Assembly (NCBI GenBank): GCA_014190235.1
Contig: BJGC01000002.1
Span: 62,001 to 126,000 of the forward strand
Direction of reading: 5' to 3'
Source: Actinomycetes bacterium
GTDB taxonomy: Bacteria; Actinomycetota; Acidimicrobiia; Acidimicrobiales; Ilumatobacteraceae
DNA: 64,000 nucleotides
Shown here: in pieces, positions 16,344 to 18,956 of the stretch
Numbering within the stretch: the first letter of the stretch is position 1
How the letters are laid out: each line of letters opens with the position of its first letter
Translations under genes and position numbers: made by a program
Notes under the pieces: generated by a model
Databases searched by the model: none
Seen by the model: the letters and a program-made list of their open reading frames with translations, nothing else
What the model was told of the DNA's origin: nothing

Positions 16344-16742
16344 GTGGAAAACATTCTGTCGGCGATCGCCTTTCTTGGCGTACTCAGCGCATTGTCGTGG
16401 TATCTGCGCGTGCACGAAGCCCATTGGTCGTCTAAGGATGGCTCTCGATTTACGTGTCGAATTCATGTCGTCAACCAAAAGGATTCAACGCCAAGTCGAT
16501 GGCGAGAGGCTCGAGCGACTATCACTCCCGATGGTTTGGTGCGACTTCGAGTACGAGGCGTGGTCAAGAGCCATCATCAAGGTGACTGGAAAATGACAGG
16601 CGCCGTGCCAGATCCTCCAAAGGGTCGAAACTTGTACGTACTTCGCCAGACTGAGCAACTGCTACTCCGAGTGCCTACCAAGAGCGTCTGCGTGAGCAGG
16701 CTTGATGCACTATTGACAACACCTAGCGAGCCGCCTCACTGA
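16344..16742 (+). CDS. Membrane-anchored hypothetical protein (DUF2550-like layout), about 132 aa
   Basis: One N-terminal membrane helix (ILSAIAFLGVLSALSWYLRV) is followed by a compact basic beta-rich domain (FTCRIHVV, ARATITPDGLVRLRVRGVV). This architecture resembles the small actinobacterial DUF2550 proteins, but I cannot confirm membership. A GTG at 16344 follows a GGGAG site; another GTG at 16326 is possible. The 3' end overlaps the convergent metX gene by 20 nt. Confidence 0.6.
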   Translation: MENILSAIAFLGVLSALSWYLRVHEAHWSSKDGSRFTCRIHVVNQKDSTPSRWREARATITPDGLVRLRVRGVVKSHHQGDWKMTGAVPDPPKGRNLYVLRQTEQLLLRVPTKSVCVSRLDALLTTPSEPPH

Positions 16743-17922
16743 GTGCGGACAAAAACGCAGAAAGCTCCGCGCTGATTTTATTTGTCTCAATTAAAAATCC
16801 ATCGTGACCCTCGGGGCTCGAAATCTGTGCATACCGAGTAAGTGGATGCTTTTTGCTGACGCTTTCGTGTAGCAACTCTTGTTGATATTCCGGATACAAG
16901 ATGTCGCTATCAATACCAATTGTCAACGTTGGTGCTGTGATTCGATTCATTGCACGAGCAACTCCACCGCGTCCACGACCAACATCATGTAGGTCCATCG
17001 CTTTGCCGATATATAAATAACTATTTGCATCAAAGCGCCGAATGAGTTTGTCGCCGTGATAGTCGAGATAGTTTTCCACCTCAAATCGATCAAAAAGTTC
17101 GATGCCGTCGTTATGAAAGTTTGTGTCACATAATTCACGTCCGAATTTCTCATTGAATCGGTTGTCAGTTCGAAACGTGACTTGTGCAATCATTCGCGCC
17201 ACCGCAAGACCGTGCCATGGACCCTGATCTGGTGCGGCACCGTAGTAATCACCGCCGTTCCATAGGGGATCCATGAGTAATGCACGACGTCCAATCGCAC
17301 CCCATGCAATCTGTTGAGCACTTGACTCAATACATGTCGCTATGGGGACAATCGAATTCACTCTGTGCGGATATGTGATCGCCCATTCCAGCACTTGCAT
17401 GCCGCCCATTGAGCCACCGATGACGCTGTGCCACGCATCGATGCCAAGAAAATCTGTGAGTGACGCTTGAGCGCGCACCATGTCGCGAATCGTGACCGCA
17501 GGGAAGCGCAGCGCATATGGAGCGCCATCATCAGGATGAGGCGATGTCGGCCCGGTCGACCCTTGACATCCACCGAGAACATTGCTGCACACCACGAAAT
17601 ATTTATTCGTGTCAACGGCTTGTCCAGGACCAACAACACCTTCCCACCAACCTGGAGTGGGATGACCTTCTTCTGCTTCGCCCGCGACATGACTATCCCC
17701 TGTCCATGCATGGCAAATCAAGATCGCATTGGAGCGGTCTTGATTCAGCGTGCCCCAAGTTTCGTATGCCAGTGTCACATCTTGCAGGGCTGCACCACTA
17801 TCAAGCGTAAAAGGACGTTGAGTGGCAAATGTAAAAAAAGATCGATGGCCGACCGCATCGCCATCAAGCCATGCGCCAGTGGGTGCGTACGCAACGCCCG
17901 TGTGCTCATTTGCTTGACGCAT
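16723..17922 (-). CDS. metX: Homoserine O-acetyltransferase, 399 aa
   Basis: An alpha/beta-hydrolase-fold acyltransferase of the MetX family: VTLAYETWGTLN, LICHAWTGDSHVAG, the nucleophile elbow GGSMGGMQVLEWA, IGIDSDILYPEYQQ with the acid and EGHDGFLIE with the catalytic His. It acylates homoserine in the first committed step of methionine synthesis. The ATG at 17922 is chosen because AAGGAAGGA sits 3-11 nt upstream; a GTG at 17937 overlaps that site. Upstream lies an S-box-type leader (see next entry), so methionine/SAM feedback at the RNA level is expected. Confidence 0.95.
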   Translation of the reverse strand: MRQANEHTGVAYAPTGAWLDGDAVGHRSFFTFATQRPFTLDSGAALQDVTLAYETWGTLNQDRSNAILICHAWTGDSHVAGEAEEGHPTPGWWEGVVGPGQAVDTNKYFVVCSNVLGGCQGSTGPTSPHPDDGAPYALRFPAVTIRDMVRAQASLTDFLGIDAWHSVIGGSMGGMQVLEWAITYPHRVNSIVPIATCIESSAQQIAWGAIGRRALLMDPLWNGGDYYGAAPDQGPWHGLAVARMIAQVTFRTDNRFNEKFGRELCDTNFHNDGIELFDRFEVENYLDYHGDKLIRRFDANSYLYIGKAMDLHDVGRGRGGVARAMNRITAPTLTIGIDSDILYPEYQQELLHESVSKKHPLTRYAQISSPEGHDGFLIETNKISAELSAFLSALSEAAR

Positions 17923-17923
17923 G

Positions 17924-18080
17924 GATCCTTCCTTCACTGACGATTACAAATTTCTCGCATCAGGAAAGATCGACAGCCCGTTGTTGCGCCGAAACGCAAC
18001 CACATCCCCATCGTGAAATGGGCTGGCACCGTACGGCTTGCACCCCGGTTGCCGGACCTGTTGGCCTCTCTTAATGCGAC
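17924..18080 (-). promoter_or_regulatory. S-box-clan SAM riboswitch with SD-sequestering helix
   Basis: Reading leftward from 18080: TCGCAT (P1 5' strand, 18079-18074) pairs with ATGCGA (17960-17955); GAGAGG, GGCAACC and GGTGCCA, the conserved SAM-I/SAM-IV core strings, follow in order; two local hairpins lie at 18006-18022 (CCCAT/ATGGG) and 17983-18000 (GTTGCG/CGCAAC); CAGCCC (18025-18020) can pair with GGGCTG (17979-17974). The usual SAM-I string GATGAAACCC is missing, so the SAM-I/IV-variant class is the better guess. GATCTTTCCT (17971-17962) is complementary to AGGAAGGATC (17933-17924), the metX ribosome-binding site, with one G-U pair. The control is therefore probably translational. Confidence 0.8.
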
Positions 18081-18089
18081 TCCCCTACT

Positions 18090-18956
18090 TTAGCGGTAGT
18101 CGGCTTCATTGGCGAGGTGTTTATCAAGTCCAACGACCGCAGTGAACTCATCAAAGGGTGTCAGCCGATCTAGATGATCCCGCATGGTCCCGTTCGAGGC
18201 CAAAATTTGCATACTTTCAGAGATGGCCTTAGTCATTGAGAAGAGGCTCGTCAAAGGTGACACGATGAGGTGAAATCCGAGGGATGACAGTTCTGTGGGT
18301 GTCAGCAACGGAGTTTTGCCGGTCTCCACCATGTTGGCAACCAATGTGATACCTGGCAGCGCTGCTGCAATAGTTTCTAACTCCTCGATTGACTGAGGGG
18401 CTTCAACAAATACAGCATCAACACCTGTGTCGCGGGCCATCTTTGCTCGCTCTATTGCTTCAGACAGACCTTCTACTCCGCGCGCATCAGTGCGTGCAGT
18501 GATGTGCAGCGCATCTCGATGATCAACTGCCGCGCGTAATTTTGCCAGCCAATCCTGACGAGGCACGACCTGTTTGCCGTCCATGTGTCCGCACTTTTTT
18601 GGCCACACCTGATCTTCTAAAAACATTCCGGCAGCACCCGCTTGCTCCCAGAGATCTACCGTGCGGATTACGTTGCTCGGGTTTCCGTACCCAGTGTCTG
18701 CGTCAACAACGACATTGATGTCTGGAACTGCAGCGCACACTCTGCGCGCGACTTCAGCCATCTCTGCTTGTGTCACTAATCCGATATCTGGTTCACCAAG
18801 TAATGTTGCCGATACACAAAACCCGGACATGAACACTGTGGTGAACCCCGCATCTCGAGTCAGAAGTGCTGACAACGGATCCCATACACCTGGCATCAAC
18901 ACTGTCTCGCCCTGACTTAAGCGATGATGCAGATTGTGGGCGCGATCAGAACTCAT
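18090..18956 (-). CDS. Isocitrate lyase / PEP mutase superfamily enzyme, 288 aa
   Basis: A TIM-barrel lyase: GVWDPLSALLTRDAGF, VVVDADTGYGNPSNV (metal-binding Asp pair), MFLEDQVWPKKCGHMDGK (the K-x-CGH motif of this superfamily), ITARTDARG and FVEAPQSIEEL. Members include methylisocitrate lyase, PEP mutase and oxaloacetate hydrolases, so the reaction is not fixed. Its ATG overlaps the stop of an acyl-CoA synthetase (ATGA), which suggests a carboxylic-acid or 2-methylcitrate-type breakdown route. Its stop lies 10 nt before the metX riboswitch. Confidence 0.85.
   Translation of the reverse strand: MSSDRAHNLHHRLSQGETVLMPGVWDPLSALLTRDAGFTTVFMSGFCVSATLLGEPDIGLVTQAEMAEVARRVCAAVPDINVVVDADTGYGNPSNVIRTVDLWEQAGAAGMFLEDQVWPKKCGHMDGKQVVPRQDWLAKLRAAVDHRDALHITARTDARGVEGLSEAIERAKMARDTGVDAVFVEAPQSIEELETIAAALPGITLVANMVETGKTPLLTPTELSSLGFHLIVSPLTSLFSMTKAISESMQILASNGTMRDHLDRLTPFDEFTAVVGLDKHLANEADYR

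Follow-up and report, generated by a model that had tools for sequence, protein, structure and literature searches.

The window, by which we mean the whole 64,000-nucleotide stretch of DNA analyzed here, harbors on its minus strand a metX gene preceded by a lyase gene, and the leader upstream of metX (minus strand, 18082-17920) carries an S-box core. The preliminary description had proposed an S-box-clan SAM riboswitch on metX, which agrees with both the covariance-model match and the NCBIfam identification of the gene. The core strings it listed, GAGAGG (18070-18065), GGCAACC (18053-18047), and GGTGCCA (18030-18024), were all located in this order on the minus strand, and its placement of the element 10 nt past the lyase stop is correct, the stop codon occupying 18092-18090, ten bases before 18080. 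The features of the locus are as follows.

16723..17922, minus strand: metX, homoserine O-acetyltransferase family, ATG at 17922 (NCBIfam NF001209.0, 483.9 bits, cut-off 331)
17924..17933, minus strand: strand C, AGGAAGGAUC, Shine-Dalgarno (SD) region of metX, with a 10-bp pairing to 17971-17962
17955..17971, minus strand: strand B, GAUCUUUCCUGAUGCGA, of which 17971-17962 is the anti-SD and 17968-17955 pairs with strand A
17969..18082, minus strand: SAM-I/IV riboswitch aptamer match (RF01725, model positions 1-99, cmscan)
17974..17979, minus strand: position of the PK-2 3' strand, GGGCUG, with the candidate partner AGCC (18038-18035, P3 loop, 4 bp only)
17983..18000, minus strand: P5, GUUGCGU 18000-17994 with GCGCAAC 17989-17983 (both-side changes in 5 of 7 pairs)
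18002..18077, minus strand: P1, GCAUU 18077-18073 with GAUGU 18006-18002 (cmscan alignment)
18007..18022, minus strand: P4, CCCAU 18022-18018 with AUGGG 18011-18007 (both-side changes in 5 of 5 pairs in relatives)
18025..18053, minus strand: P3, GGC-AA-CCG ... CGG-U-GCC with the S-box internal loop (invariant in 18 leaders)
18055..18066, minus strand: P2, a plain hairpin without internal loop, GGCC 18066-18063 with GGUC 18058-18055 (100% paired in 18 leaders)
18066..18079, minus strand: strand A, UCGCAUUAAGAGAG, comprising the P1 5' strand, J1/2, and the start of P2, which can pair with strand B too
18087..18092, minus strand: probable -10 box of the metX promoter, TAAAGT (TANNNT conserved upstream of P1)

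A TANNNT motif lies 14-20 nt upstream of the P1 CAT in 34 of 39 leader clusters, against a mean of 2.3 and a maximum of 8 in shuffles and a count of 1 in the best other 7-nt window, the 14-20 nt interval having been picked after an earlier count was seen. The first three bases of TAAAGT are the lyase stop codon, and the same construction of a -10 box on this stop (CGC-TAA/TAG) was observed in several relatives. A sigma-70 consensus scan did not pair the metX -10 box with any -35 box. The conservation of a -10 box at the lyase stop indicates that metX probably has its own promoter, the box overlapping the stop codon, and that its transcript probably starts near 18080, which would place strand A at the extreme 5' end of the mRNA. 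metX could also be read through from the acyl-CoA synthetase-lyase genes, although nothing here calls for it.

The covariance search suggested in the preliminary description favored one S-box class. The SAM-I/IV model RF01725 aligned with the leader over its full length with an E-value of 2.1e-4, its 35.5 bits falling short of the gathering score of 41.1, and the genome-wide search returned the match at E 4e-4. It was the sole SAM-clan model reported for the leader by cmscan, in an output that omitted one overlapping lower-scoring match from the same clan. Searches of the whole genome with SAM-I (RF00162) left the metX leader unmatched even at E 10, and those with SAM-IV (RF00634) gave no match there. 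The cut-off that this leader misses is passed by many of its relatives in the family. The leader illustrates that real members can fall under an Rfam threshold.

The architecture points to the same class, for which a structure is available (PDB 4L81, sequence in PMC5393176). The leader follows the SAM-I/IV order P1-P2-P3-P4-P1'-P5-PK-2 strand, in which a P4 helix exists and P5 comes after P1 as the class requires, with a P2 devoid of internal loop and an S-box core (GGCAACC...GGUGC) upstream of metX, a methionine/SAM gene of the kind that class members control. It differs from the RF01725 consensus in its score below the cut-off, its PK-2 of only 4 bp, a P1 ending in wobble pairs, and the anti-SD/anti-anti-SD platform that follows; the switch of the solved member reportedly uses PK-2. 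With SAM-I it shares the ligand-binding core and translational repression via an anti-SD, as in the Xanthomonas SAM-I (PMC7270179), but it has P5 and lacks the P2 internal loop; membership was rejected since the segment GATGAAACCC (P2 kink-turn/PK-1), whose absence the preliminary description had noted and we confirmed, is missing and RF00162 does not match. This absence agrees with SAM-I/IV, whose members have a single-helix P2 with no internal loop (PMC2864571), lack PK-1, and retain P4 (PMC6890682). With SAM-IV (RF00634, PMC6890682) it shares P5 after P1 and the PK-2 position, whereas that class has no P4 and a P2a/P2b with PK-1; the plain P2, the covarying P4, and the lack of an RF00634 match led us to reject this membership as well.

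In the window, P1 consists of the pairs G-U, C-G, A-U, U-A, and U-G, and P2 of 4 bp closing a 4-nt loop. The preliminary description had mentioned a closing P1 helix without specifying it; such a helix exists at 18077-18073 : 18006-18002, and the more conspicuous match TCGCAT/ATGCGA belongs instead to the competing helix A:B. Across 18 leaders of the genus, 95.5% of the pair cells were standard, and both-side changes were observed in 12 pairs against 5.0 in shuffles, none of 500 reaching as high. This covariation is carried by P4 and P5; P1 (98.9% of cells paired, mostly invariant), P2, and P3 are near-invariant, as expected for the ligand core. The single-sequence fold of the leader is unexceptional (z -1.4) and was dropped as proof of the element. 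Considering both the Rfam match and the covariation in relatives, the metX leader element is, on this comparative evidence, a real SAM-I/IV riboswitch of known class, and SAM is its predicted ligand given the conserved core nucleotides.

We compared 80 metX loci from the same actinobacterial group, the nearest records being named Acidimicrobiaceae or Ilumatobacteraceae, and the core precedes metX in nearly all of these relatives with upstream DNA. One metX relative of 61% identity (L095) has a leader without the riboswitch core. Of 298 genomes searched in the order, 108 carry an RF01725 match; for the family the figure is 153 of 201, with 69 of 79 among the near-complete genomes. Other SAM-I/IV elements of the order precede metX and proteins resembling other methionine-pathway enzymes, as expected of a SAM sensor; in other families the downstream proteins are MetX and, judged by eye without family models, proteins of O-acetylhomoserine sulfhydrylase/cystathionine lyase type and homocysteine methyltransferase.

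The expression platform was examined through the pairing of three strands. The anti-SD proposed in the preliminary description, GATCTTTCCT, lies precisely at 17971-17962 and forms a 10-bp helix containing one G-U with AGGAAGGATC (17933-17924), just upstream of the metX ATG. All 10 pairs form in the window, and a helix of at least 10 bp between the same regions arose in 349 of 20,000 shuffles of the anti-SD strand; this chance level, in combination with the unexceptional fold, makes the window alone weak evidence. Stronger evidence came from the alignment of relatives that this description had also suggested. In 77 metX leaders of the family, grouped into 39 clusters at 80% identity, so that phylogeny is only partly removed from the permutation tests, native B:C pairing gave -17.0 kcal/mol against -14.8 for swapped partners (z -4.3, 0 of 5,000 permutations as good). 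B:C also beats swaps within the genus (180 of 10,000 as good), and in L033/L034 a change of GAUC to AAAAC in the anti-SD is matched by GAUC to GUUUU in the SD, preserving the helix. The helix 17971-17962 : 17933-17924 is thus, as far as sequence comparison can tell, real, and its covariation in both family and genus lends good support to the translational control of metX that had been suspected.

The preliminary description overlooked the partner with which the anti-SD would switch. Strand A (18079-18066) pairs with 17968-17955 of strand B in 13 of 14 ungapped positions, overlapping the anti-SD, a match reached in 10 of 20,000 shuffles. Across the 39 family clusters A:B covaries (-15.9 native against -12.8 kcal/mol swapped, z -6.5, 0 of 5,000), and in every one of the 39 it shares bases of B with B:C. 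As controls, A:C (z -0.5) and the P3 loop with A (z +2.7) showed no such covariation in the same clusters. Within the genus, A:B was no better than swapped (z 0.6), a test that is uninformative because A is near-constant there; for the same reason the A:B step relies on the family covariation and the match in the window. In other families of the order A:B is marginal (z -1.8, 199 of 5,000), which makes the platform look family-specific, and the signal became less distinct when the families were pooled across the order. The riboswitch class is already known, and the A:B/B:C expression platform appears to be particular to the family.

Folding agrees with a competition for strand B. In minimum free energy (MFE) folds of the growing transcript, which leave aside pseudoknots, kinetics, and the ribosome, P1 persists until the transcript reaches about 17981, A:B is formed beginning at about 17957, and B:C takes over when the whole SD has been made. 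Forcing either state in the window gave nearly equal energies (-60.1 kcal/mol for A:B, -60.5 for P1, a gap of about 0.5), and the unpaired fraction of the SD was 0.66 with A:B against 0.25 with P1. The corresponding medians over the 39 leaders were 0.66 and 0.32, the SD being freer in the A:B state in 31 of them. These observations suggest a mechanism in which, lacking SAM, strand A would leave P1 and J1/2 once B has been transcribed and pair with it, leaving the SD free and metX translated, and in which SAM, when present, would hold A in P1 and the ligand pocket, so that the left-over B could close on the SD and turn translation off. By analogy with the class, SAM binding would then tip the A:B/B:C balance. 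We consider it likely that this SAM-I/IV riboswitch represses metX translation when SAM is plentiful through competing A:B and B:C pairings; the aptamer, the anti-SD B on the SD C, and the competing A:B are each supported by the comparison.

A different account, which we hold to be unlikely, would have PK-2 and P1 formation alone make the anti-SD close, A never pairing with B and the SAM-free B engaging in other local structures. Across the 39 family clusters the P3 loop and the PK-2 strand covary (-11.7 native against -9.9 kcal/mol swapped, z -5.2, 0 of 5,000), and this account would also fit both the genus result for A:B and the full-leader MFE, which is the B:C fold whether or not P1 is formed. 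Against it, A:B covaries in the family and overlaps B:C in every cluster, and without A:B the folds leave nothing to free the SD (unpaired 0.08). Moreover, PK-2, although defining for SAM-I/IV, is weak in the window and its genus: 71% of its cells are paired in the 18 leaders, and in the window it reaches -8.6 kcal/mol, with 72% of swaps equally good. This weakness and the sub-threshold Rfam score also count against the main reading.

The preliminary description had further envisaged a second switching layer, in which CAGCCC (18025-18020) and GGGCTG (17979-17974, minus strand) would pair in competition with the P4 hairpin CCCAT/ATGGG. The four closest leaders carry both strings unchanged, but GGGCTG occupies the place of the PK-2 strand, the pairing shows no covariation over the 39 clusters (z -0.2), and the relatives next in line, L035-L040, no longer have it (L035 still having CAGCCC), P4 surviving there by both-side changes; we accordingly rejected this switch as very improbable. 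Equally implausible is transcriptional control by an intrinsic or Rho-dependent terminator, with the SD not hidden, since a scan found no terminator-like site in the metX leader and the platform helix, whose SD pairing is the conserved part, runs up to the SD and is followed by no U run; the weak terminator-like stem followed by TTTTTTT that could favor it (17854-17840, minus strand) lies inside the start of metX and is probably just Ser-Phe-Phe-Thr coding.

A second SAM-I/IV element was observed in the genus, at G000:C6:92051-92159 (minus strand, locus L112) and at G270:C4 (L113), as well as at L208, L214, L216, L217, L220, and L223. It precedes small proteins and no met gene: a 45-aa ORF in the genome of the window, a 67-aa ORF in G270, and, in five other genomes, proteins of 110-166 aa with CxxC pairs. 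These small proteins gave no Pfam match above the cut-off and no convincing PHROGs match. A 165-aa protein was found in only 5 of 201 family genomes, one of these matches being partial, and it always lies immediately downstream of a SAM-I/IV element. In the L113 leader, the strand CUUCUUGAUG forms a 10-bp helix with the SD strand CAUCAAGGAG, which resembles a copy of the aptamer 5' strand AUCAAGAG.

Returning to metX, we regard it as rather likely that the family uses a SAM-I/IV platform of its own, in which a single strand is contested by the metX SD and by the 5' terminus of the RNA, made up of the P1 5' strand and the SAM-pocket strand J1/2, and in which PK-2 is reduced in the genus of the window. 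A literature search of incomplete coverage found no account of this A:B/B:C platform. The compact three-strand model names the exact bases to mutate, and the second element of the genus places SAM-I/IV riboswitches on small proteins of uncharacterized function. The metX leader, in turn, reveals a possible translational mode of SAM-I/IV riboswitches in a large, mostly uncultured actinobacterial group.
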